Source: Opitutales bacterium
GTDB taxonomy: Bacteria; Verrucomicrobiota; Verrucomicrobiia; Opitutales; Intestinicryptomonadaceae
Direction: 5' to 3'
DNA: 64,000 bases
Assembly (NCBI GenBank): GCA_015061945.1
Contig: SUVP01000002.1
Location: 248,001-312,000 of the forward strand
The notes below the pieces were generated by a model that did no database searches, was not told the origin of the DNA, and was given only the letters and a program-made list of their open reading frames with translations. Position 1 is the first letter of the stretch. The number at the start of each line of letters is the position of its first letter. Shown one piece after another: positions 34,491-50,417 of this stretch. The translations under genes and the position numbers were made by a program.

Positions 34491-35449
34491 TGGTCGAAAC
34501 CAACAAAATCTATTTTTTGACGTTTAGAATTTGATATCAAAATAAGGGCGTTTTCTTCCTCCGAAGATTTCGCCTTTTTTATTTCTCCAATTCTGAAAAT
34601 CGGCTCGCCAAATTTTGCGAAATATTCTTTTGCAAATTTATCAAAGTTTGATTTCGACGAAAATGTAAATAATAACTCGTAATCTTCGCCATCGCAAAAT
34701 GCTCCTCTAATCGACGCTTTTTTGCCGTCGAACTCACGCAAAGGTATGTCGGCTTCTAATAATTCAGCACACATACCGTCGGGCAAAAGATTGCGTAAAT
34801 CAGCACCTAAACCATCGCTTAAATCAATACACGAAGTTATCAAACCACTCTCTGCAAAAAAAACGCCCTGCTCTAATCGCGGTTGAAAAGTTAAATGATG
34901 CCCACTTTCAAACGACGCCCCCAATACGCCTGTCGTGCAAATTATATCGCCTTCTTTTGCTCCTGTACGCAAAAGTGGAGAAAGAGTTGTTTGCCCTAAC
35001 AATGTCAAATGTGTCGAAAAAAAGTCGTCTTTCACCGACGCAAAATCTCCGCCAATAATCTTGATTGCATAACGCTCACACGCACTTCCCATTCCCTCAG
35101 AAAATGCGTCGAGCCAATCGAGAGAAATGTTTGGCGAACATATCGAACTTGCCAACGCCGAAAATGGTCGAGCCCCCATCGATGCAATATCGCTAACATT
35201 GCGTTTTATGAGCTTTTCGCCAGCCAAAAATGGAGAATCTGTCTCTGCAAAATGTCTGCCCAAGATTACTGCATCGCTTGTCGCACACACGTTATCTTGA
35301 AGTGATTTTGCCTTTATCAACGCACAATCGTCGCCAGCACCATAAGGCGAAGGCAAGCTTGCCGATGCTCCAAACTTTGAGCAAACCCGAGCTATCAGTT
35401 TTTTTTCTGATAGCGTTGCTACGTTGTTATTTGTTGAAAAGGGATTCAT
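34478..35449 (-). CDS. thiL: Thiamine-monophosphate kinase
   Basis: 323 residues. GAGDDCALI near residue 41, DAVILGRHF (where other ThiL proteins have DxxVEGVHF) near residue 60, KRNVSDIASMGARP near residue 84 and GGDFAS near residue 135 are the ATP/thiamine phosphate-binding signatures of the ThiL/PurM fold. ThiL makes thiamine diphosphate from thiamine monophosphate. The start overlaps the end of the CPBP gene by 23 bp, making it the last gene of the pyrB-pyrC operon. No other thiamine gene is in the window. Confidence 0.9.
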   Translation of the reverse strand: MNPFSTNNNVATLSEKKLIARVCSKFGASASLPSPYGAGDDCALIKAKSLQDNVCATSDAVILGRHFAETDSPFLAGEKLIKRNVSDIASMGARPFSALASSICSPNISLDWLDAFSEGMGSACERYAIKIIGGDFASVKDDFFSTHLTLLGQTTLSPLLRTGAKEGDIICTTGVLGASFESGHHLTFQPRLEQGVFFAESGLITSCIDLSDGLGADLRNLLPDGMCAELLEADIPLREFDGKKASIRGAFCDGEDYELLFTFSSKSNFDKFAKEYFAKFGEPIFRIGEIKKAKSSEEENALILISNSKRQKIDFVGFDHYIS

Positions 35450-38788: not shown

Positions 38789-38807
38789 GACGACATATTT
38801 TGTCGCT
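38789..38807 (+). promoter_or_regulatory. Shared palindrome site 1 (tandem-AAA gene)
   Basis: GACGACA-TATTT-TGTCGCT, a variant of TGCGACA-TATTT-TGTCGCA, lies 47 bp before ATG 38854 and about 50 bp after the extended -10 element. Confidence 0.65.
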
Positions 38808-38853
38808 ACCGCATGATATACTTTTCAGAAATTCAGAACAAGATTTAACGACT

Positions 38854-41007
38854 ATGAGTAGATATATTAGTATGAGAAAAATTGAATTATCGATAAAAGG
38901 AATTATAAAATCGGCATTGGTTAATTTATCAAAAGAATATGCCGAAAACATCAACTATGCAAGTGCCCTCTTTGAAATATTAGATTACTATTTAGTCAAA
39001 GACATTGCACTTGAAGAATCTGCTAAAATTCAATCGAATGAAAAAGAAAAACTCATCGAAGCAATCAAAGATTCCGACGACACCGATGATATTGTCCACG
39101 CTATTCGTAGGACAATTGAAAAGAAAGAAGCCAAAAAATTATTTCAAATAATTTCAAAAGAAATAATATCTAAAATTGACCACAATGATTTGCTTTTTCA
39201 AAAAAGAACATCCACTGTTGAAGTCGAAAACATTGGAGATTTCTTCGATCTTAATGACGCTGAAAAACGTTTGATTTTATTTTTTTATGCGTGGAATAAA
39301 ACTAATGAATTTGAGAATTTTTGCCAAGTTGAATGCCATAATTTAGCACAAAGCAAAATGTATTCTTTTATTGCAACGGCTATTGGGTGCAAAGAGAAAG
39401 AAATAGCATTAGCTATAAAAAATCTTCGAGAAAAAAATATTATCGAAAATGTAAGATTCGTTCTTCCCGTTTTGACTGAAGAAATTAGAAATTATATTCT
39501 TGAATTTGACGGCTCGAGCATCGCGGAAAAATTCAGCAAAAAGATGAAAATCGACAAAACTTTTAAGCTCTCAAGTTTCCCAATCGAAAGAGACGATATT
39601 GAAATTATCAAGAAGATGTTGAAGTCGACAAAACCTCGCCATATTTTGCTTTACGGTGAACCAGGGGCTGGAAAAAGTGAGTTTGTAAAAGCATTAGCAA
39701 AAAATTTGCACAAAGATATCTATATTCCAAATCGAGAAAGCAAGAATGGAGAGCTTACACATACAAAGATAAACGCTACTATTTTTGCTTCGTCGAGAAG
39801 TAAATCAATTGCACTTATAGATGAGGCTGATGAATTTCTCGAAACCTCGTTTGACGGCTTTTTTGCGGGATTAGCAGGCAAAGGCAACAACGAACGCAAA
39901 GGTGCTGTCAACTTACTTATGGATGACGCAAAAGCATCTATTATTTGGATAACAAATAGTATCGAAGGCATCGACAAATCTACCCGACGTCGCTTTGCAT
40001 ATTCGTTGCGTTTTGACGGAATTTCTGATTCTCAAAAAGAAATTATAATAAAAAATAGCGTAGCAAAAAATAAGATTAGCAAACAATTTATCCCTCAAAT
40101 GAAAACGCTTTCAAAACGCTATGGACTCTCTACTGCAGGGATTGGTCTTGTCTTGGACAAGGCGACGAGCATTTCTGATAACAATTCGGAATTGGCTTAC
40201 AACATCGATAAAATCGCAAAAGCTCACTACGAGTTAATTTCAAACAAGAAGTCTATCAGCGAAGAAATAACGGTTGATGAACGTTTCGACCCCTCGATTT
40301 TAAATATCGATTTCCCGATTGACGCTATCTCGCAAACGCTTTCAAACTATAAAATAGCGACTGAAAATGGGGTAAAAGCCCCAATGAGCTTTTTGTTATC
40401 GGGCGTTGCTGGCACTGGGAAAACTCAGCTTGGCAGATTTATCGCTAACCAACTTGGCAAAGAATTAATCTTAAAAAGAATGAGTGAAATCTCAAATTGT
40501 TATATCGGCGAAACCGAAAAAAACATTCGTAAAATGTTCCTCGAAGCAACACGCAATAACGCTGTACTTATGATTGACGAAGCTGACTCGCTTTTCTACG
40601 ACCGACGCAACGCACGTCAAAGTTGGGAAATATCGCAAACAAACGAAATTCTTGCACAAATGGAAATCTTCAATGGCGTATTTATTTGTACGACAAATCT
40701 CGCTGAAAATATGGATCCTGCTTCGATGCGTCGCTTTAATTGGAAAGTGAAATTTTCGGCTCCCACGCACGAGGGAAGAATCAAATTGTATTCAAGATAT
40801 TTTTTGGAAAATAAAAAGCCCAGTTGTGATGTTGAGAAATCTTTGTATTCTATGGACGGACTCTGCCCTGGCGATTTCAAGGCAGTTTGGCAAAAGACAC
40901 GTTTTCTCACAGACAAGCCCGACTCTTTACTTCTCGATGCACTTAAAACAGAATTAAGCTACAAAAAATATCTCGCAACAACATCAATCAAACTCGGATT
41001 TTGTTAA
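38854..41007 (+). CDS. Tandem AAA+ ATPase of unknown role
   Basis: 717 residues from ATG 38854. An N-terminal region of about 230 residues without recognised domain (mostly helical, possibly substrate- or DNA-binding) precedes two AAA modules. Module 1 has Walker A GEPGAGKSE near residue 268 and Walker B LIDEADEF near 321; module 2 has Walker A GVAGTGKTQ near 517, Walker B LMIDEADSL near 572, sensor CTTN and an RRF arginine finger. Both are intact, so both may hydrolyse ATP. The general form is that of classical AAA unfoldases or remodelers; there is no protease domain. It shares an upstream palindrome with the UDG-like and MoxR genes of the cluster and probably works with them. Confidence 0.8.
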   Translation: MSRYISMRKIELSIKGIIKSALVNLSKEYAENINYASALFEILDYYLVKDIALEESAKIQSNEKEKLIEAIKDSDDTDDIVHAIRRTIEKKEAKKLFQIISKEIISKIDHNDLLFQKRTSTVEVENIGDFFDLNDAEKRLILFFYAWNKTNEFENFCQVECHNLAQSKMYSFIATAIGCKEKEIALAIKNLREKNIIENVRFVLPVLTEEIRNYILEFDGSSIAEKFSKKMKIDKTFKLSSFPIERDDIEIIKKMLKSTKPRHILLYGEPGAGKSEFVKALAKNLHKDIYIPNRESKNGELTHTKINATIFASSRSKSIALIDEADEFLETSFDGFFAGLAGKGNNERKGAVNLLMDDAKASIIWITNSIEGIDKSTRRRFAYSLRFDGISDSQKEIIIKNSVAKNKISKQFIPQMKTLSKRYGLSTAGIGLVLDKATSISDNNSELAYNIDKIAKAHYELISNKKSISEEITVDERFDPSILNIDFPIDAISQTLSNYKIATENGVKAPMSFLLSGVAGTGKTQLGRFIANQLGKELILKRMSEISNCYIGETEKNIRKMFLEATRNNAVLMIDEADSLFYDRRNARQSWEISQTNEILAQMEIFNGVFICTTNLAENMDPASMRRFNWKVKFSAPTHEGRIKLYSRYFLENKKPSCDVEKSLYSMDGLCPGDFKAVWQKTRFLTDKPDSLLLDALKTELSYKKYLATTSIKLGFC

Positions 41008-41095
41008 GCAATGAGAATCTCTTGACGACTAACTTTTTTCTTGCCCAAGTAAAAACATAGGCGCGCTTGTGATGGAGCTCGCCTATTTCTTTTAT

Positions 41096-41557
41096 TTAAT
41101 AGCCATCAAAATCAGGTGGTCCTTTTTCGCTGCAATTAGTTGAGCCAGCCGCCCAAGCTAACAGTACCCATGGAGAAATTATTACAACAAACATTATAAT
41201 TCCCGTAATAGCCCCATCTCCAAAAATAAAAAATGCGATATTTTCAACGATAATTCCAACGATAAACCATCCACACACAAGCATAAACATCCAGTTCATA
41301 GCCAGAGCCATCAAAAAGAACAATAACAACAAGGGATATATAATACCAATCAGAAAATATTTATCCGCTAATTCTCCCATTATTTCAAATGGTTTACATA
41401 ACCAATTCGGAAATAGTTTACATAACCAATTCGGCTCAGCTTCTTTGATGAGAAGAGGATAAGACAACGTGAAAACAAAAATTGATGCCCCAAACAAAGC
41501 AAGCAATTTAAGAAAACCTATAAATTCAAAAGGAGGAAAAAACGTATTATGTTCCAT
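41096..41557 (-). CDS. Small membrane protein with an octapeptide repeat
   Basis: 153 residues with about four membrane helices (FLKLLALFGASIFVF; YFLIGIIYPLLLLFFL; WMFMLVCGWFIVGIIV; GIIMFVVIISPWVLLA). The loop after helix 1 contains two near-identical octapeptides, PNWLCKLF and PNWLCKPF, encoded by a 24-bp tandem repeat (about 41392-41436). The C terminus is short and polar with a Cys. No family recognised. It sits between the AAA gene and the UDG-like gene, 33 bp after the latter on the same strand, so it may belong to that transcript. Confidence 0.65.
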   Translation of the reverse strand: MEHNTFFPPFEFIGFLKLLALFGASIFVFTLSYPLLIKEAEPNWLCKLFPNWLCKPFEIMGELADKYFLIGIIYPLLLLFFLMALAMNWMFMLVCGWFIVGIIVENIAFFIFGDGAITGIIMFVVIISPWVLLAWAAGSTNCSEKGPPDFDGY

Positions 41558-41590
41558 AAATATCTTTTTGGTTAAATTAAATTCTAATGG

Positions 41591-42322
41591 CTACCTTGCC
41601 TTTTTATCCGCATTGAAGTATTTTAAGAATTTGCACGACGAAATACGTCGCAACAGTTTTGAGAAGATTTGTTGGAGTGGAGCGAGCTTTGAATAGACGA
41701 TTGCTTGAGAGATATCGTTTAAAAACTCTTGGCGTTGGGTCGCATCGGCATAGTGCGTTAAGAATGACGTATGATAAGTTGTTATCATATCTCTATTGCA
41801 AAATTTGAAAATTTTTCCACGCAACGATTTTATTGGTGATGTCGAGTTATCGCCAATCAATCCGCTATAAGTCCTCGCACCAAGTGCAATGATAATCTTT
41901 GGATTCACGATTTCAATTTGACGTTTTAAAATCGGCAAGCATTCTGCCATTTCGTCGATTGTGGGTTCACGGGGTGTAGAACCACTTTTGACTCGGTATT
42001 TCATTATTGGTGCAACGTATACGTCTTTGCGAGAGATTCCAATTTCATCCAAGAGGGAGAAGAAAAAATCGCCCATCTGCCCTGACATCGCAATGCGTGT
42101 GCGTTCATCATCTTCGCTCGGAGTTTCGTAAACAAAAAAGACATCTGCCTTATAATTACCATTGCCGAACACGAGATTTTCTATCCCTGCTCTGTCGCGT
42201 AATCTTGAATTACAAAGCATATCTTCGTGCGATTCCGCAAGAAAATCTGCTTTCGATTTTTCGTATTTAGAAGCCAAAAAACTTAAGTCAATAATCTGTG
42301 GTGTATAATTTGTAGTATTCAT
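41591..42322 (-). CDS. Uracil-DNA glycosylase-fold protein with incomplete iron-sulfur site
   Basis: 243 residues from ATG 42322 (the frame opens at 42370 inside the operator). It aligns with type 4 uracil-DNA glycosylases along the core: VFFVYETPSEDDE (motif 1, normally GEGPGEEED) at residues 61-73, SGQMG for FVGRAG, KQ/RQIEIVNPKIIIALG near 133-147, and TYHTSFL for the HPSYL motif. Of the four iron-sulfur cysteines, only Cys37 and Cys128 align; the first is absent and the KC motif is KY (108-109). A basic C-terminal extension of about 35 residues follows. It may bind or excise a different base, or serve as a DNA or nucleotide sensor. Confidence 0.75.
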   Translation of the reverse strand: MNTTNYTPQIIDLSFLASKYEKSKADFLAESHEDMLCNSRLRDRAGIENLVFGNGNYKADVFFVYETPSEDDERTRIAMSGQMGDFFFSLLDEIGISRKDVYVAPIMKYRVKSGSTPREPTIDEMAECLPILKRQIEIVNPKIIIALGARTYSGLIGDNSTSPIKSLRGKIFKFCNRDMITTYHTSFLTHYADATQRQEFLNDISQAIVYSKLAPLQQIFSKLLRRISSCKFLKYFNADKKAR

Positions 42323-42346
42323 AATGCTACCACTATACAAAACAGA

Positions 42347-42365
42347 TGCGACAAAATATGTCGCA
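42347..42365 (-). promoter_or_regulatory. Shared palindrome site 2 (UDG-like gene)
   Basis: TGCGACATATTTTGTCGCA on the minus strand, a perfect 7-bp inverted repeat with spacer TATTT. It lies 24 bp before ATG 42322 and just upstream of a TATAGT -10 element (42338-42333). Confidence 0.75.
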
Positions 42366-42418
42366 CGCAAAAAGCTACTAAATTAAAGAGACCTTTACCC
42401 ATTTTTTTCACATTTGGG

Positions 42419-42437
42419 TGCGACAGAATATTTCGCA
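42419..42437 (-). promoter_or_regulatory. Shared palindrome site 3 (weaker, between divergent genes)
   Basis: On the minus strand TGCGAAA-TATTC-TGTCGCA: one arm is perfect and the other has one mismatch. It lies midway between sites 2 and 4 in the divergent promoter region. Confidence 0.55.
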
Positions 42438-42460
42438 AAAAAACAAATATAAAAAATAAG

Positions 42461-42479
42461 TGCGACGTATTTTGTCGCA
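42461..42479 (+). promoter_or_regulatory. Shared palindrome site 4 (MoxR-like gene)
   Basis: TGCGACGTATTTTGTCGCA; one mismatch in the inner base of the left arm, extended by a further G/C pair outside. It lies just downstream of TATAAA (42448-42453), where transcription of the MoxR-like gene should start. Confidence 0.7.
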
Positions 42480-42534
42480 CTGGTTTGCTAAATTATTTTC
42501 CGTAAAAATTTTTAACACAAACGAAAGATTGAAT

Positions 42535-43728
42535 ATGAGAAATATTAAAATTGGAGAGTTAAAAAAACACATTATATTATTCGACAAAGCACATGTTCCG
42601 CTTATGATTTACGGAACTTTTGGCATCGGCAAGTCGGACATCGTCAGAAGTTCGGCAAAGGACAAAGCTAAAAAATTTTCAGATAGAAAATTTATCGATT
42701 GGATGTCGGCTGACGACTCAACAAAACTCGACGCACTGAAAAATCCGTCAAAATATTTTGCGTTAATTGATATTCGTTTATCGCAACTTGAACCGAGCGA
42801 TATTCGTGGTATACCAAATATCTTTAACACGCAAGATGTCCCCTGCTTGCAGACAATCCCATGGTCATGGGTGATGTATATCACACGCCCTAACGCCTGT
42901 GGTACGCTTTTCTTGGACGAAATAAATTTGGCTCCGCCACAGATTGCGGCGTCGGCATATCAGGTTATCAACGACCGTGTAATTTCAGACAGACACATTT
43001 CTGACGGCATAAATATTGTCGCTGCCGGCAACACTGCACTCGACACAGACATTGTCTACGATATGCCAAATCCGCTCAAGGACAGGTTTGCAGAAATTCA
43101 AGTGACATTCGATGCGGAATCGTGGTTAAACGATTGGGCAGTCATACATTGCCACCCGATGATAGTTTCGTTCTGTTCATTCAAACAGTCGTGGATACAT
43201 CACACGTTCAGCGATAGTGCCGACAAAAATGTTACGCCTCGTGGAATCGAGCGTGCGTCAAAAATCTTGAATATGTTTGTTGGCGACAAAGCTGGCGATA
43301 TAACAATTTCTCCGTTTATGTTCGACGCTATCGCTGGATGTTTAGGCAACGGCTGGACCGTTCAATTTAAAGCATATTTGAGCGTTTATAGAAATCTTGA
43401 TTTTGAAAAAATCTTGAAAAACCCTGAGATAATTACAAACGCAGAAGAATACAATATAGAGCGTCGGTATGCTATTATTGGCGGTTGCACAGAACGCATT
43501 TTATCAATTTCGGATGATAAAAAAATAAGCACAGAAACAAAGTATAAGAGAATTGCAGACCTTATGAAAGTATTGTGCTATCTGCCTTCAAACCTTTTCG
43601 TGTTGGCGTGGAAACAACTTCATGCACAAGGTAAATCGAAGATAATTCTCTCGGTAATCGCCAAAAATTTGGAATGCTACGAGCTATTGCAGGCACGCCA
43701 CTCTGAAGTTTTAAATAAGATTGTTTAA
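42535..43728 (+). CDS. MoxR-type AAA+ ATPase
   Basis: 397 residues from ATG 42535; the frame opens at 42460 inside the operator, so the first 25 codons are untranslated. Walker A GTFGIGKSD near residue 27, Walker B GTLFLDEINLAP near 123, and the sensor segment IVAAGNT near 167 mark a MoxR/CbbQ-type AAA domain. The C-terminal 150 residues are helical. MoxR proteins act as chaperones together with vWA-domain partners; the next gene encodes such a partner and starts one base after this stop codon. Confidence 0.88.
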   Translation: MRNIKIGELKKHIILFDKAHVPLMIYGTFGIGKSDIVRSSAKDKAKKFSDRKFIDWMSADDSTKLDALKNPSKYFALIDIRLSQLEPSDIRGIPNIFNTQDVPCLQTIPWSWVMYITRPNACGTLFLDEINLAPPQIAASAYQVINDRVISDRHISDGINIVAAGNTALDTDIVYDMPNPLKDRFAEIQVTFDAESWLNDWAVIHCHPMIVSFCSFKQSWIHHTFSDSADKNVTPRGIERASKILNMFVGDKAGDITISPFMFDAIAGCLGNGWTVQFKAYLSVYRNLDFEKILKNPEIITNAEEYNIERRYAIIGGCTERILSISDDKKISTETKYKRIADLMKVLCYLPSNLFVLAWKQLHAQGKSKIILSVIAKNLECYELLQARHSEVLNKIV

Positions 43729-43729
43729 T

Positions 43730-45058
43730 ATGAAAAACCAAGAACTCAGATTAGAAATAGCAAAGACGATGCTACTTATGCGTTTCCCATTTTTTGGGTA
43801 CATAGTGTCGCGTTTGAATATTTCTAAAAACGATAAAATTGACACGTTTGCAATCAATGAGAGATGCGACGTCTTTTACAGTCCTAAATTTCTCGATAAA
43901 CTATCGGATAGCAATCTGCTGACAGTCCTCGCACACGAGGCACTGCACGCCGTATTTATGCACTTCACGCACTTTTCTAAAACGATAGATCTCGATATTA
44001 TGAACTTGGCTTGCGATATCGAAATAAACGATATTCTTGTCAATATCGAGAATATGAATATGCCGATGGCTTCCGTTTTGGATATCGACGGGAGTGGCGG
44101 AAAAATCCCAAATGAAAATCAAGCCGATGACGAGATTTGCGGATTTGCACCAAACAAAGAGGGCAACTTTGTAATTATTTACAAGCAGAAAAATTACATC
44201 ATAAAATGTCGGGATAAATCGAGTATAGAGATTTATGACGAGCTTTACGACATCTTGCAAAAGATAAAAAAAGAACACGCTTATCAACTATCATTTTCGG
44301 GCAATATGAAAGGCGGTCCGAGAGGTTTTGATGAACATCAAATAGGCGAACTTTCAAAATCGGAACAAGCAGAAGAAGAAAATCGATGGGGCGAAGTGTT
44401 AATCGGTGCAGACGTTTATCAAGATAGCGTGAACCCCAAGAAAACTCGAAGCCCAAACGGATGTTGGTACAAACGCTATATCGACAAAATTCTCAAGCCA
44501 CAAGTCGATTGGCGAGCTGTTCTGCGTAAATATCTAATCGAGTTGATTCCGTTCAACTATTCTTACAATGTGCCAGCAAGAAAATCGTACGCAATAAATA
44601 TTTACGAGCCTAAAATTTTGCGTAAGCCCTTGGGGATAACTGTATGTATCGACGTTTCGGGAAGTATTGGCACAAAAGAATTGCAAGAATTTTTAAGCGA
44701 AGTCGTGGGAATTGCAAAAACTTCAAACGAAATATCAATCCGACGCTTGTATTGGTCAACAGTGGTTGATGATAAAAATGACGAAGTTTTTACACGCAAA
44801 AATCTCCGTCAACTTTTTACACCATCAAAAAATATTCATACAACAGGCGGTACGACAATTTCGTGCGTAAAAGAATATCTCGACAGACATCGCGATAGAA
44901 AAAACGAAAATTTGGTAATCTACTTAACCGATGGTTATGTTGAAAACAAACCACAGATGCATAAAAAAAGCCTTGTGATAATTTCACCAAATGGCTCGGA
45001 TGAAATTTTCAAAAAAACAAAAATCCCATTTGTGAAAATGAAAAAACGTCGCGATTAA
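43730..45058 (+). CDS. Metallopeptidase-like plus vWA-domain protein (MoxR partner)
   Basis: 442 residues from ATG 43730. The N-terminal domain carries HEALH at residues 69-73 (HExxH zinc motif) followed by NLACDIEIND (92-101), as in the putative metallopeptidase domain of the DUF2201 family. The C-terminal domain is a vWA-like fold with the metal-binding DVSGS at 308-312 and a conserved Thr in HTTGGTTIS near 370. Between them is a long charged linker. In this family the vWA part docks with the MoxR ATPase. Its translation is coupled to the MoxR gene (TAAT-ATG). A role as ATP-controlled protease or chaperone is inferred. Confidence 0.85.
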   Translation: MKNQELRLEIAKTMLLMRFPFFGYIVSRLNISKNDKIDTFAINERCDVFYSPKFLDKLSDSNLLTVLAHEALHAVFMHFTHFSKTIDLDIMNLACDIEINDILVNIENMNMPMASVLDIDGSGGKIPNENQADDEICGFAPNKEGNFVIIYKQKNYIIKCRDKSSIEIYDELYDILQKIKKEHAYQLSFSGNMKGGPRGFDEHQIGELSKSEQAEEENRWGEVLIGADVYQDSVNPKKTRSPNGCWYKRYIDKILKPQVDWRAVLRKYLIELIPFNYSYNVPARKSYAINIYEPKILRKPLGITVCIDVSGSIGTKELQEFLSEVVGIAKTSNEISIRRLYWSTVVDDKNDEVFTRKNLRQLFTPSKNIHTTGGTTISCVKEYLDRHRDRKNENLVIYLTDGYVENKPQMHKKSLVIISPNGSDEIFKKTKIPFVKMKKRRD

Positions 45059-45194: not shown

Positions 45195-46595
45195 ATGAAA
45201 AAAGCCCTATTATTAACCTCATGTTTAGCTGTTTCTTCGCTCTTTGCGGACAACATCGCTATTTCATCATCCGATCAATATACCATTGAAACCGATGGTT
45301 TAATTACTAATATTTACGCTACCGCAGGCGTTAGCGACGTAAACGTTAATGTTACTGCAAATAATCTGTACTACTTATACGCAGGTCATGCTGACTCGGA
45401 CGCAGGTCATGCTGACTCGGTAGATTCAAAACAACTCGACGCAAAATATACTGTTACAGGTGGTGCAACAGTTGCACGCTCTGGTAGTGGTGGTGTTTTC
45501 GGTATTCGTTCAAGTGCAGGTTCATCGACTACTTTTACAGTTAAAGATGGTACATACAACATTGGCTCAAAAGATGGCTTGTTTAAAGATATTGTCATTG
45601 AAGCGTCATCATCTTCTACAACAGGTAATAGCCAAAAGTTAATATTCGATAGCACATCAACAACAAATGTATTCACATCACAATTAGTGATGAAGGCTAA
45701 TCTTGGTACAACTATTGAAGTAAATGGTAAATTTAATGTTTACAATGTTGCATTACCATCGTTGACAAAAAATGTGGTAGTTCCAGCAGATGCTCCATAT
45801 AGCAAAATCAATTTACAACAAAGTGGTTCATTTACTCTTGGTTCGACTGGCACTATCAACACAGATACGATGACAATCACAAATACAAAAACTACTTTTA
45901 ACGGCACATTGAACCTTAAAACAACATCAGAAACAAATGCTTTGGCATTAGCCGGAAATACAACTGCTACATTTAACAATGGCTCGAAATTATATCTTGA
46001 ATCAGGGAAGAGAATATTGCTCAGAGATAATGCTACCCTGACTATCAATCAAGGTGCAATGATAGAAGCTGATTTTGTCAGATTTGGTGATGACAAAGGT
46101 GGTAAAGGTGCAAAACTCATACTCAATGGCAAAGATGTCCTTAAAAATCCAGCAGGCACAGGTGATTCTAATTTGTTGATTGTTTCAGGATACAAAGCTG
46201 ACATCAAAGTATCGCAAACAAATAGCTTTGGGCAAACTTCTGTAAATACACAGTCAGAAATCTTCCTTGAATTAGCTTTCACAGATGCAGAAAGTTACAT
46301 CAACTTTGGTAAAATCCGTGGAGCAGGTGTAACAGACGCAATCTTCAAAGTTAAGAATTTTGAAAACAACCGTATCAAAGGTTATTTGGGCGAACAAATT
46401 ACTGGAACACAACTTTGGCTCTACGATGAAAAGTTGGAAGATTATGTACAACTTAATGCCGACAAATTTGGCTGGGTTGACGCTGGCAATGGCTATTTCT
46501 GGTTGAATATGACAGCAGTTCCAGAACCAGCAGAATGGGCAATGATTTTCGGTGCGTTGGCACTTGCACTCGCAATCTATCGCAGAAGAAAATAG
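45195..46595 (+). CDS. PEP-CTERM secreted protein 1
   Basis: 466 residues: signal peptide MKKALLLTSCLAVSSLFA, a long Thr/Ser/Asn/Gly-rich repetitive beta region (many TFNGTLNLKT-like turns, suggesting a beta-helix or autotransporter-like passenger), and a C-terminal sorting signal VPEPAEWAMIFG...YRRRK. The PEP motif, hydrophobic helix and basic tail are recognised by exosortase, which cleaves and attaches such proteins during export of surface polysaccharide. A 21-bp perfect tandem repeat (45379-45420) duplicates AGHADSD. It is paralogous to the two following genes but similar mainly in signal, low-complexity style and C terminus. Confidence 0.88.
   Translation: MKKALLLTSCLAVSSLFADNIAISSSDQYTIETDGLITNIYATAGVSDVNVNVTANNLYYLYAGHADSDAGHADSVDSKQLDAKYTVTGGATVARSGSGGVFGIRSSAGSSTTFTVKDGTYNIGSKDGLFKDIVIEASSSSTTGNSQKLIFDSTSTTNVFTSQLVMKANLGTTIEVNGKFNVYNVALPSLTKNVVVPADAPYSKINLQQSGSFTLGSTGTINTDTMTITNTKTTFNGTLNLKTTSETNALALAGNTTATFNNGSKLYLESGKRILLRDNATLTINQGAMIEADFVRFGDDKGGKGAKLILNGKDVLKNPAGTGDSNLLIVSGYKADIKVSQTNSFGQTSVNTQSEIFLELAFTDAESYINFGKIRGAGVTDAIFKVKNFENNRIKGYLGEQITGTQLWLYDEKLEDYVQLNADKFGWVDAGNGYFWLNMTAVPEPAEWAMIFGALALALAIYRRRK
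45379..45420 (+). repeat. 21-bp perfect tandem repeat inside PEP-CTERM gene 1
   Basis: Two identical copies (45379-45399, 45400-45420) beginning ACGCAGGTCATG. They add seven residues in frame (AGHADSD) and could expand or contract by slippage. Confidence 0.9.
46515..46595 (+). repeat. PEP-CTERM sorting cassette, copy 1
   Basis: About 80 bp from GCAGTTCCAGAACC to the stop codon, identical at the nucleotide level to copies at 48715 and 50337 apart from one base in copy 2 (TTCGGT/TTCGGA). The coding sequence before it is unrelated at the nucleotide level. Confidence 0.9.
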
Positions 46596-46812: not shown

Positions 46813-47058
46813 TAGCTTGCTCTTTTATTCTACAAAAATCAATATGTCTTTTTTTTAAATGAAAACTCTCGCACATCCGCCAACAAGCGATTGCGAAGCA
46901 ATGCGATAAGAAAACAGGATAAGCCACGATTATAGTCGTGGCGTACAAGGTCGAGAGGAACGAAGTTCCGAAGTCCAGACTTGTCTGGTCAAAATAATAC
47001 AAAAGAAAAAAAATTATTAAACTTGACATAGTTCAACAACTTATATTTTTTGAAATAT
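46813..47058. repeat. Spacer plus mosaic hairpin repeat, array 1b
   Basis: After an AT-rich spacer, one unit at about 46888-46992 repeats the modules in reverse order and orientation: GCGATTGCGAAGCAATGCG, GCCACGATTATAGTCGTGGC, GGAACGAAGTTCC, CCAGACTTGTCTGG. Arrays 1a and 1b thus form a large imperfect inverted repeat. The last ~65 bp before ATG 47059 should contain the promoter of PEP-CTERM gene 2 (TTGACA at 47023-47028). Confidence 0.75.
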
Positions 47059-48795
47059 ATGAAAATGAAATCTGTTTTATTCTTATCAACATTATCCTTA
47101 TTTGCCTCGGCAACTTTGGCAACTGTAGTTGACCCAAAAACTACAGCTGGAACAGGCAAACTACAAGGTACAGATGCAAACGATATTCTCTATTTGAATA
47201 CCCCAACAGCGTCAACACCACAATTGCCCTATGTTAATAGATTTGAAGGGATTAACGCAACTGTAAAAGCTATCAAGGCAAATGAAGGTCAAGACCAAGG
47301 AATCTTGTTTGTTTTAAGCCCAGGAGCTGGCACAACAATAGATATCAACACAGCGTCAGACACTGCTGTTGATGTTGATGCATTGATTCTCGCAAATAAT
47401 CAGTTGCAAATTTCATATACAGACCTCAATTTTAAAAACTCTGCAACTGGCTCAAACGCATGGGGCGTTGTAAATGTCCGATTAATCAATTTGGCGACAG
47501 GTGCAGTAGGCGATGTAGTTCAAAAACAGCTGATGAATTTTGAAAAAGGGAACTTCAAAGTTAGCGCGATAGACACTTATCTCGGATCTTCTTATACGAG
47601 CAGTGTTAACGTTGCGAGTTTTTCAACATACAACATTTCAAAAGATGCGAATGTAGTACACAGTGGTAATATCCATGTACAAAAAGCTGGTATTTTGAAT
47701 ATTGATGGTCAATTCAAAACAATAAAACCAACTGAAGAAACAACAAACATCATATTTAACAATCAGTCAGAAGCATCGGTAGTTGGTACAACAGGTAAAT
47801 TTACATTAGGTGCAAGCACAACATTTACAATCAACGACAAAGCTACCCTCACAAATAAGGGTGAAATGATTGTTGAATCGGAATCGAAAGCAATCTACAA
47901 CTCAGGGTCGACATATAACGTTGAAGGAACAACAACATATAACCTTGGTTCATTGGTTTACCATAAGAGCGGTAGCACCACAAACATCACAGGTACTCTG
48001 AATAGTTATGTTTTGAACTCTACAAGCGATGGTTTCTTGGCAGGAGCTACAATCAATATTGGAACTGAAAAGAACAAAGTTGGTGAATTGAATTTTGCTC
48101 AAACATCTGGGACAGCAAAAAGAATTACAGTAGCAAGCAATATCAATAACTACGGCAGTATTGTTATGAGTAATGACGACGCTATCCAATTCACAGGTAA
48201 TGTTGTTAACCACGGCACAATGAATCTCAAAGGTGGCGTATATGTCAAAAATGGTCATTTGACACTTAGTGAAGACGCTACAACAATTTTCACTTCATAC
48301 CAAAATCTGCAAACAAGACTTGTGTTGGTGGATAACAATGCAACAATAACACTCAAAAGTGGAATTGTAGACGATAAGGGTCGTGAAGCAAACATTGCAA
48401 CAGTTGGCACAGCAAATGCAAACCTCTACATGAACATTTATGCCGATGTAAAGTTTGGTTTCTTAAATCAAGGCACAAACGATGCTGTATTAAATATCAA
48501 CCTCTATGAAAATGGTATTTTGAGATTCATGGATGGCGACGCATTGAGAAGTATCCACGCAGACATCAATATTTTCAACTTTGATGAAAATAGAATTTAT
48601 GTGGGCGATTCTTCAACTGCAGAAGAATTGCAATTCATAAAATTATATGCTGGCGAAGACAAAAATACATTCCTCGGTACAGCAATGGTCAATAACGGAT
48701 GGTTGACATTAGCTGCAGTTCCAGAACCAGCAGAATGGGCAATGATTTTCGGAGCGTTGGCACTTGCACTCGCAATCTATCGCAGAAGAAAATAA
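47059..48795 (+). CDS. PEP-CTERM secreted protein 2
   Basis: 578 residues from ATG 47059 (MKMKSVLFLSTLSLFASATLA is the signal peptide; the frame also contains an upstream TTG that lacks support). The body is rich in Thr, Asn, Ser and Gly with turn repeats such as TIGTEKNKVGELNF and YNSGSTYNVEGTTTYNLGS, typical of extended beta-helical surface proteins. It ends with the same VPEPAEWAMIFG...YRRRK sorting signal as its neighbours. No catalytic motif is visible. The protein is probably anchored or released at the outer surface by exosortase processing; no exosortase gene is in the window. Confidence 0.88.
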   Translation: MKMKSVLFLSTLSLFASATLATVVDPKTTAGTGKLQGTDANDILYLNTPTASTPQLPYVNRFEGINATVKAIKANEGQDQGILFVLSPGAGTTIDINTASDTAVDVDALILANNQLQISYTDLNFKNSATGSNAWGVVNVRLINLATGAVGDVVQKQLMNFEKGNFKVSAIDTYLGSSYTSSVNVASFSTYNISKDANVVHSGNIHVQKAGILNIDGQFKTIKPTEETTNIIFNNQSEASVVGTTGKFTLGASTTFTINDKATLTNKGEMIVESESKAIYNSGSTYNVEGTTTYNLGSLVYHKSGSTTNITGTLNSYVLNSTSDGFLAGATINIGTEKNKVGELNFAQTSGTAKRITVASNINNYGSIVMSNDDAIQFTGNVVNHGTMNLKGGVYVKNGHLTLSEDATTIFTSYQNLQTRLVLVDNNATITLKSGIVDDKGREANIATVGTANANLYMNIYADVKFGFLNQGTNDAVLNINLYENGILRFMDGDALRSIHADINIFNFDENRIYVGDSSTAEELQFIKLYAGEDKNTFLGTAMVNNGWLTLAAVPEPAEWAMIFGALALALAIYRRRK

Positions 48796-48851: not shown

Positions 48852-49022
48852 CGTAAATAGAAAATAACCTTGCATCTATAAGTTTTACAATTTGAACTAT
48901 ATTTGCAAAAAATATAACTATTTTGACTTTTTCCAAAAATCCCAAAATAAACGCAAAAAAACACTTGAAATATCCCCATACTTTCTTATTTCTATATGTC
49001 ATTAATTAGAATACGTATCGAA

Positions 49023-50417
49023 ATGAAAACAAAAACAATATCAACACTGATATCTGCACTTGTAGCATCGTCTGCATTTGCTGTAACTTACGACCCTGCA
49101 AACAGCCCTACTCCATTGGGTAAAGATGGCACTTATGTCCAGTTATCTGCTCCAGAAGGAACAACTGAAGCTATCTTTGATGGACAAGGTCAAAGCGATC
49201 TTTACTATGTTATTCTCAGCGCCTCAAACCCGGAACAAGACGCTAATTTTACAATAATTAACGGCTTCTCGGCGAAAAGAACTGCTACTGGCGAAATTTT
49301 GACATTTAAGCAACAATCAGCTTCAAAAGGTATAGATGCTACATTAACACTTAAAGATGGAACATATAATTTTGCAACATCTGATGCATCGGAGCTTATC
49401 ATTACATCAGCAGGTTTTGCAGACGGAGTTAATAGTAGCAGAGCCATTGTGTTCGATTCAAGCACAACAACAAACCTTTTCACATCATCGGCAAAGTTTC
49501 AAGGTGTTAAAAGTGCTAAAGTAGTATCAAAAGGTACAATTAACGTTTACAATACCACTTACACAACATCTGTACCAAGTGATGTTGCATATGGACAACT
49601 CCATACATACGGCACATTCGTACAAGAAAGTGGAACAATAAATGCCAACGATATGCTTGTAAAATCAGTAAATTGCAATATCAATGGCACATTAAACCTC
49701 AAGCAAAAGTCGGGAACAAAACACTACCCAGTTGTAATAAGCAACCAAAGAGGTTTAACATTTGGTAAAGATGCTAAACTCACAACAACAGCAAACAGCA
49801 GAATCCAATTAAACAAAGATAGCACTTTGACAATCCAATCTGGCGAAAAGTCAATTGCTGTAGATTTGATTATGTTCAATGGCGACAATGGAACTTTAAA
49901 CCTTTCAGGAAAAAATTCTGTTGTTCACACAAACGGAAAGTTTGACACAGTTTTGCTGACATACGCTGGTAAAAACGTTGCAAAAATCAATGTTGACGAC
50001 ACTAATACATTTGGCAAAACATTTGTAGCGGTCTCGCCAACATTCGCAACAGATAACACATCTATCAGAATTGAAATTGATTTCAACTTCACATCAGATG
50101 ACCAATATTTGAACTTGGGCGAGATTTATACAGGCGATAACACACCTGGTGTTGACCCAGTTTTCTATGTAAAGGACTTCAAAAACGGATATTTGAGAGC
50201 AAGCTCTATCAGAACATCTGGCACAGGTTATGTTGGCGATACAAAGCTCTACATCTTCAACGAAGCAAGCCAACAATATGAATTTACAGAATCTCAATGG
50301 ATTGGCAATGCAACAGACGGATTTATCCTCACAGTTGCAGTTCCAGAACCAGCAGAATGGGCAATGATTTTCGGTGCGTTGGCACTTGCACTCGCAATCT
50401 ATCGCAGAAGAAAATAA
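49023..50417 (+). CDS. PEP-CTERM secreted protein 3
   Basis: 464 residues from ATG 49023 (MKTKTISTLISALVASSAFA is a signal peptide with an AFA cut site; the nine codons upstream are not needed). The repetitive, Thr/Ser/Asn-rich body resembles protein 1 most: both contain FDS(S/T)(T)TTNLFTS-like and NGTLNLK segments at matching places, so proteins 1 and 3 are closer relatives. The C terminus is the shared PEP-CTERM signal with hydrophobic helix and RRRK tail. It should be exported by Sec and processed by an exosortase encoded elsewhere. Confidence 0.88.
   Translation: MKTKTISTLISALVASSAFAVTYDPANSPTPLGKDGTYVQLSAPEGTTEAIFDGQGQSDLYYVILSASNPEQDANFTIINGFSAKRTATGEILTFKQQSASKGIDATLTLKDGTYNFATSDASELIITSAGFADGVNSSRAIVFDSSTTTNLFTSSAKFQGVKSAKVVSKGTINVYNTTYTTSVPSDVAYGQLHTYGTFVQESGTINANDMLVKSVNCNINGTLNLKQKSGTKHYPVVISNQRGLTFGKDAKLTTTANSRIQLNKDSTLTIQSGEKSIAVDLIMFNGDNGTLNLSGKNSVVHTNGKFDTVLLTYAGKNVAKINVDDTNTFGKTFVAVSPTFATDNTSIRIEIDFNFTSDDQYLNLGEIYTGDNTPGVDPVFYVKDFKNGYLRASSIRTSGTGYVGDTKLYIFNEASQQYEFTESQWIGNATDGFILTVAVPEPAEWAMIFGALALALAIYRRRK

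Follow-up and report, generated by a model that had tools for sequence, protein, structure and literature searches.

In the window analysed here, a 64,000-nucleotide stretch of an Opitutales bacterium (GenBank assembly GCA_015061945.1, contig SUVP01000002.1, positions 248,001 to 312,000 of the forward strand), a 19-nucleotide palindromic box with the core CGAC-N7-GTCG precedes a tandem AAA ATPase gene, a uracil-DNA glycosylase (UDG) gene and an operon encoding a MoxR-like ATPase and its VWA partner. We propose that this box is probably the operator of a WYL-WCX transcription factor whose gene lies on contig 7 of the genome, and which would act in the manner of DriD, as an activator triggered by single-stranded DNA (ssDNA), on a regulon of repair and defence-like genes. 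The evidence observed here consists of the box itself, its register to the -10 element, the poor -35 element that it overlaps, its presence at the regulator's own promoter, the co-occurrence of box and regulator in related genomes, and the recurrence of the box with relatives of the regulator on plasmids.

The box is found in a constant register to the -10 element

In order to evaluate the box statistically, pattern searches were performed in the window and in the whole genome (2.52 Mb, here designated G000). In the window, the 19-mer with up to three mismatches had 10 matches, compared to a mean of 3.56 and a maximum of 7 in 100 dinucleotide shuffles. The core CGAC-N7-GTCG was observed four times (0.51 expected, largest 5) and the longer GCGAC-N7-GTCGC twice (0.045 expected, largest 1), both in comparison with 200 simulations. 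In the genome, the bare palindrome at two mismatches is common (174 matches versus 34 for the reversed pattern). The motif with a T-rich spacer, TGCGAMRTATTYTGTCGCA, was found at seven places when up to two mismatches were allowed: four without mismatch, of which three belong to the window cluster and one lies on contig 7, and three with two mismatches (window position 34616, C2:6890 and C7:4206).

The pattern TTGTCGC-N10-TANNNT had 25 matches in the genome against two for the reversed control, and the promoters of the tandem-AAA, UDG and MoxR genes are among them. With GCGACNTANTTTGTCGC-N10-TANNNT and up to two mismatches, ten places were obtained, three in the window cluster, four on contig 7 and three within 7 kb of the start of contig 2; at three mismatches there were 22 matches and a single control match, and the additional places on contigs 2 (172 kb), 3, 4 and 14 may be due to chance. 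The spacing was analysed at 20 core sites of G000 and its relatives, drawn from the window, the contig 7 locus (L042), the start of contig 2 (L044), and loci L134-L136, L097, L100 and L105. The last three had been fetched with the pattern that bears the -10 element and were also reached independently via the AAA protein, and L096 was left out of the count because it was found solely by a pattern already containing the -10 element. A TAnnnT hexamer begins 10 nt past GTCGC on at least one side at 16 of these 20 sites (next best offset, 4 sites), and at eight of the ten sites of G000 alone, two of the ten being near-copies of one module. When the orientation was set by the spacer alone, with L096 included, 14 of 19 sites had the hexamer at 10 nt, the background being 0.025 per offset. 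The hexamer located 17 nt upstream of the -10 element matches TTGACA at only 1-2 of 6 positions, and the box overlaps this non-consensus -35 element. Reading TGTCGC itself as the -35 element of a sigma factor was rejected, since 10 nt is too short a spacing for a -35/-10 pair. The discriminating features are the T-rich spacer and the -10 register, not the bare palindrome, and the register is the strongest of them.

The regulator and its regulon

The sequence-only reading had placed the regulator outside the window and had suggested searching for one with the same site at its own promoter. Such a gene was identified on contig 7 (L042:3162-4160, minus strand). It encodes a protein of 332 aa with the Pfam domains WYL (PF13280) and WCX (PF25583), to which NCBIfam assigned no family. 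Its promoter carries the box AGCGACGTATTTTGTCGCT followed at 10 nt by TAAAGT, and the box ends 45 bp upstream of the start codon. A structure model built with 25 sequences (pLDDT 76.7; an earlier model from five sequences, pLDDT 63.1, was not used) predicts an N-terminal winged helix-turn-helix (wHTH) domain, in the same chain as the WYL and WCX domains.

The WYL gene adjoins a DnaQ-like exonuclease gene, and genes for a KaiC/RecA-like ATPase, a YgjP metallopeptidase, a dual-specificity-phosphatase-like protein and a degenerate FtsK-like protein, the last with a box of its own, lie nearby. Contig 7 also holds a superinfection-immunity gene (PF14373) 21 bp past a box, a UDG paralogue with an exact box and 72% identity to the UDG of the window, a PD-(D/E)XK nuclease (PADLOC PDC-S26, 2.5e-64) and a DnaB-like ATPase. 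The phosphatase and immunity genes recur at the start of contig 2, where two GmrSD_N (DUF262) genes behind boxes are also found. That the genes form a common regulon, possibly responding to DNA damage or phage, had been proposed earlier and gains support here: the box follows the WYL protein within the family, and the members are repair and defence-like genes. Judged from their sequences, the extra UDG, nucleases, DnaB-like and AAA ATPases, superinfection-immunity and GmrSD-type proteins suggest a response to damage or phage.

Three further observations concern these loci. The module of phosphatase-like and superinfection-immunity genes is present twice in the genome (L042:7477-8235 and L044:178-918), with boxes at each copy and 97% identity between the phosphatases, which suggests a duplicated or mobile module. 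An FtsK/EssC-like domain, seemingly without a Walker A motif, is conserved near the WYL-exonuclease pair (L042:1839-2606, minus strand; L134:9555-10316; L136:2002-2838), and in G000 and a related genome, G007, its gene has its own box with the -10 element very close to the ATG, so that the mRNA may be leaderless. Proteins with QPQFADKC repeats, or related to them, are encoded at L042:11623-12901, L044:5198-6897, L134:790-1365 and L134:4071-5216, several of them adjoining boxes; no Pfam match was obtained for those at L042:12044-12901, L044:5198-6058 and L044:6109-6897.

Distribution of box and regulator in the family and order

The WYL protein was found in four of the 19 genomes of the family (100, 95, 70 and 59% identity). 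A scan of genome contigs returned three relatives of the window's genome, namely the family genomes G007, G001 and G005, which are metagenome bins of Opitutales and Verrucomicrobiaceae. The box with its -10 element (up to two mismatches) is present in all four genomes with the WYL protein and in one of the 15 others (Fisher p = 0.0013, not corrected for kinship). In each of the four it lies directly upstream of the WYL gene, the hexamer in G005 being AAAATT.

Absence of the box upstream of orthologous clusters had been named in the sequence-only reading as refuting the regulon. The outcome was mixed, with the box present at the tandem-AAA and close UDG genes and absent at one of two MoxR genes. 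Besides G000, close tandem-AAA orthologues (57-66%) occur in G007, G005 and G003, and the box is present at 4/4. Close UDG copies are limited to G000 (two) and G007 (one), with the box at 3/3; the 36-41% UDG matches of most family genomes, G000 and G007 included, represent a separate paralogue.

In G037, a genome of the same order and another family whose WYL protein is 42% identical, TGCGACATGAAATGACGCA is found 28 bp ahead of the WYL start, with TACCAT at 9 nt. This place is the only match of that pattern without mismatch in the genome; with one mismatch allowed, matches are hardly above control (6 and 8 versus 6 and 5). A GmrSD gene follows the locus. A variant palindrome, TGCGTCATATTCTGACGCA, with a TATTC spacer was also observed in G037 (L177:9495-9511), 3.2 kb past the end of the WYL gene, and perhaps reflects a shifted operator specificity.

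Relatives on plasmids and phages

A tblastn search with the WYL protein returned 23 plasmid records (23-33% identity) and three phage records (31-39%, one of them 38.6%). Loci from 21 of the plasmid records and one of the phage records were examined, and removal of four near-duplicates from these 22 left 18 loci comprising 180 kb. GCGACA-N5-TGTCGC with up to one mismatch was found 14 times, in 10 of the 18 loci. By comparison, the other 89 permutations of the arm letters gave a mean of 0.71 loci (at most 4), and no other spacing between 0 and 11 gave more than two loci. When equally sized windows were compared, the box was present in 8/18 of these loci and in 0/25 loci around other WYL proteins from the order.

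A TAnnnT hexamer at 10 nt accompanies 6 of the 14 boxes (next best offset, 2). These six are from Vibrio (one), Marinobacter (two), Pseudomonas aeruginosa (one), Aeromonas (one) and Pseudomonas luteola (one); Raoultella has CATACT at this place. The Sphaerotilus locus contains the BREX genes pglZ and brxD, Sir2 and a dual-specificity phosphatase, and the P. aeruginosa plasmid locus has dynamins and a DEAD/DEAH helicase with an EH-signature protein, which we take to be Zorya-like. The neighbours at the Methylomonas locus, which has no box, include umuD and genes for a Y-family polymerase and a PD-(D/E)XK nuclease. Neither an exact match of the box nor a WYL relative was found in the IMG/VR viral_contigs. 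The box and this WYL clade occur together from Verrucomicrobiota to plasmids of Pseudomonadota.

Comparison with known WYL regulators

The published consensus for DriD of Caulobacter crescentus is ATACGAC(X)7GTCGTAT, with ATACGACAGTAACTGTCGTAT as the probe; DriD sites overlap the -35 element at one distance from the -10 element, the -35 elements match at 1-2 of 6 positions, and ssDNA activates the protein (PMC12340889). The box described here has the same ten core bases, CGACA-N5-TGTCG, with the same spacing, the predicted regulator has the same wHTH-WYL-WCX fold, and in both cases the site covers a poor -35 element at a constant distance from the -10 element. Repair genes and a nuclease are part of the DriD regulon (PMC12340889, PMC4211646), as they are here. 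The two systems differ in the outer bases (ATACG...CGTAT versus TGCG...CGCA), the proteins are about 18% identical, and DriD does not activate its own gene, whereas the box here has a -10 element directed toward its own WYL gene. The present regulon also differs in its patchily distributed, defence-like genes.

A profile search of the PDB gave DriD as the best match (1.4e-8), ahead of PafB (4.3e-7), BrxR (0.0056) and PafC (0.063), with unrelated arginine repressors in between. Using the structure model, Foldseek ranked DriD (5.9e-15) and PafBC (8.7e-13) above BrxR (1.7e-8) and CapW (1.1e-7). Full-chain superposition of the model was poor (rmsd >12 against full-length DriD), and the C-terminal part gave a Z score of 15.4 and 3.7 A over 196 residues.

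Two further activators resemble the system. SiwR of Mycobacterium smegmatis is a homodimeric WYL activator at a 19-bp imperfect palindrome between the -35 and -10 elements, with the -26 region being required (PMC10693628). It is likened here by its description, and differs in acting on adjacent DinB-like genes and in a conserved GGA at -26. The mycobacterial P1 (RecA-independent) consensus is tTGTCRgtg - 8 nt - TannnT (PMC5656591), which is the register of TTGTCGCnn - 8 nt - TAnnnT here, TAnnnT lying 17 nt from the start of TTGTC in both. PafBC, a WYL activator that binds ssDNA, is a heterodimer with an asymmetric motif (PMC5656591, PMC11804915). Its two WYL proteins are encoded in a single operon, whereas G000 has one WYL match, with an exonuclease gene beside it, and a palindromic box. 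CapW, a repressor, has a site overlapping the -10 element, the site of BrxR from E. fergusonii (BrxR-Efer) is downstream of it, and Acinetobacter BrxR overlaps a predicted -35 element (PMC9122588, PMC9122601, PMC9122589). These proteins are likewise WYL dimers at palindromes in defence islands, whereas the box here ends 10 nt upstream of the -10 element and the regulator matches them less well than DriD in sequence and fold. In the literature searched, which excluded subscription papers, no earlier report was found that links the box to any WYL regulator besides DriD.

Sites and genes in the window

The four sites of the sequence-only reading were read directly and are present, and for the tandem-AAA, UDG and MoxR genes it was confirmed that the spacer is oriented in the direction of transcription. 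The fifth match, within the UDG frame, was also confirmed and has an intact core. All features are collected in Table 1.

Table 1. Boxes, -10 hexamers and genes of the cluster, in coordinates of the window.
Feature	Position	Strand	Remarks
Box of tandem-AAA gene	38789-38807	+	GACGACATATTTTGTCGCT, 3 mismatches to the 19-mer; core CGAC-N7-GTCG intact at 38791-38805
-10 hexamer TATACT	38817-38822	+	10 nt past GTCGC
Tandem AAA ATPase	38854-41007	+	Frame open from 38800; C-terminal AAA domain most like IetA
Small predicted membrane protein	41096-41557	-	No Pfam match; possible target of fifth box
Fifth box	41634-41652	-	TGCGACGTATTTCGTCGTG; core CGAC-N7-GTCG intact; inside 3' end of UDG frame
Family-4-like UDG	41591-42322	-	ATG at 42322; extra copy beside the family-wide one
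-10 hexamer TATAGT of UDG gene	42332-42337	-	10 nt past GTCGC
Box of UDG gene	42347-42365	-	Exact TGCGACATATTTTGTCGCA
Middle box	42419-42437	-	TGCGAAATATTCTGTCGCA, one mismatch; between the two divergent promoters
Box of MoxR-VWA operon	42461-42479	+	TGCGACGTATTTTGTCGCA, one mismatch
-10 hexamer TAAATT of MoxR operon	42489-42494	+	
MoxR-like AAA ATPase	42535-43728	+	Weak AAA_5 match only
DUF2201 metallopeptidase-VWA protein, MoxR partner	43730-45058	+	Frame open from TTG 43721

The ATG at 38854 is the likely start of the AAA gene because the TTG at 38800 sits within the box. The fifth box is oriented toward the membrane-protein gene, 76 bp upstream of it, with a -10-like TAAAAT at 9 nt instead of 10, and may be more than a stray match. 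On its minus-strand side, the MoxR box likewise shows TATATT at 10 nt. The weak match at 34616-34634 was rejected as a site, being located within a reading frame with its core not intact. Downstream of the cluster, three consecutive genes (45195-46595, 47050-48795 and 48996-50417) encode products sharing the C-terminal segment VPEPAEWAMIFGALALALAIYRRRK; we assume that these segments are PEP-CTERM-like sorting signals.

Alternative explanations and points against activation

The sequence-only reading had attributed the box to a repressor. This attribution is not upheld, as the box lies upstream of the -10 element, on a poor -35 element and at a constant distance, in the manner of the activators DriD, SiwR and PafBC. 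A repressor in the style of CapW and BrxR, in which the same WYL protein would cover the promoter as an unliganded dimer and be released by its ligand, is in our judgement rather unlikely. It would agree with the palindromic, defence-associated sites of these WYL repressors, with the position of Acinetobacter BrxR, with the BREX or Zorya-like genes adjoining the plasmid relatives, and with the box at the regulator's own promoter, an arrangement that is usual for repressors. A blocking protein, however, needs neither a constant -10 distance nor a non-consensus -35 element under its site, the CapW and BrxR-Efer sites lie elsewhere relative to the -10 element, and the PDB profile matches place DriD and PafB well before BrxR.

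It is very improbable that the box belongs to another regulator and that the WYL gene is a mere member of its regulon. The box at the WYL promoter would look identical in that case, and G003 (see below) would be accommodated; against this, family search of the box-bearing genes examined recognised no regulator-type product besides the WYL protein, box and WYL clade stay together between phyla, and the same core is bound by DriD, which is itself a WYL protein. The frequency of the bare palindrome could be cited for an origin by chance, as a repeat family or as a terminator-like hairpin; this explanation is refuted in the main by the fixed -10 register, the conservation at orthologous promoters and the recurrence in plasmid and phage loci with its permutation control, and its probability is minimal.

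It is important to mention that a number of observations weigh against the proposed activator regulon. At up to one mismatch, 8 of the 18 plasmid and phage loci have no box. In G003, which is 83% complete, boxes are present and the WYL gene was not found. The only other close MoxR orthologue, in the nearest genome, G007, is without a box; MoxR-VWA may be a recent recruit to the regulon. Two sites depart from the register, C2:6890 having no TAnnnT at 10 nt and the middle box of the window having one on neither side; the latter may be auxiliary or inactive. As Acinetobacter BrxR covers a predicted -35 element, the position of the box alone is no proof of activation, and the constant register together with the lost -35 element is a stronger argument than position. 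Similarly, PDB entry 9c5g is, by its title, a CapW structure with ssDNA, so an ssDNA ligand alone does not mean activation. In a tree of 44 rows, 20 of the 21 rows of the regulator's group were on one branch (support 100/99) with DriD outside, and the shared operator may therefore be convergent. DriD (branch 2.86, partial sequence) and a Streptomyces row are both long-branched and outside the clade, which makes the place of DriD unsure; five rows of at least 420 aa, two from the regulator's group, were left out of the tree. That the regulator works like DriD is well supported; by descent, it may or may not be a DriD.

No match to LexA (TIGR00498) above the cut-off was obtained in the 19 family genomes; in a control set of 14 known genomes the model had matches in nine, six of them above the cut-off. 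The sub-threshold matches of G000 and G007 are UmuD-like proteins beside UmuC, and the family may possess a non-canonical LexA. The umuDC pairs are located at L150 (G000 contig 2, about 115.6 kb) and L149 (G007), both genomes being among those in which no canonical LexA was detected. A further point on the opposing side is that no box was found at the umuDC promoter of G000, which indicates that the regulon is not a simple replacement of the SOS response.

Proposed mechanism and implications

By analogy with the characterised WYL proteins, we infer DNA binding, dimerization, activation, an ssDNA trigger and an anti-damage or anti-phage function. The WYL factor would bind, probably as a homodimer, with each wHTH domain reading one CGAC/GTCG half-site, the half-sites flanking the non-consensus -35 element and the downstream one lying at about -26, separated from the -10 element by 10 nt. 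Binding of ssDNA from damage or phage replication to the WYL domains would free the DNA-binding domains, and the dimer would then anchor sigma-70 RNA polymerase at the weak promoters, as in activation by DriD, SiwR and PafBC. The extra UDG, the tandem AAA ATPase, the MoxR-VWA pair, the DnaB-like ATPase, the exonuclease and the PD-(D/E)XK nuclease would be activated together, along with the two DUF262 (GmrSD-type) proteins, the superinfection-immunity protein and others.

More tentatively, CGACA-N5-TGTCG followed at 10 nt by TAnnnT could be a general switch of WYL activators, used by separate WYL lineages: DriD, the clade described here and, as a half-site, mycobacterial PafBC. The present clade might spread it across phyla, both on plasmids and within defence islands, with ssDNA jointly turning on scattered repair and anti-phage genes also where canonical LexA is lacking, as a horizontally spread second regulon for damage and infection.

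The analysis names a candidate regulator for a dispersed regulon of defence-like genes and defines an exact operator and a promoter register, so that a promoter scan can be used to place uncharacterised genes in a phage or damage response. Activation by ssDNA, if true, would explain how separate defence and repair genes are kept silent and then switched on jointly in a lineage where canonical LexA was not found. The DriD mode, described for one Caulobacter pathway, would then also apply to a mobile clade that is present in at least two phyla.

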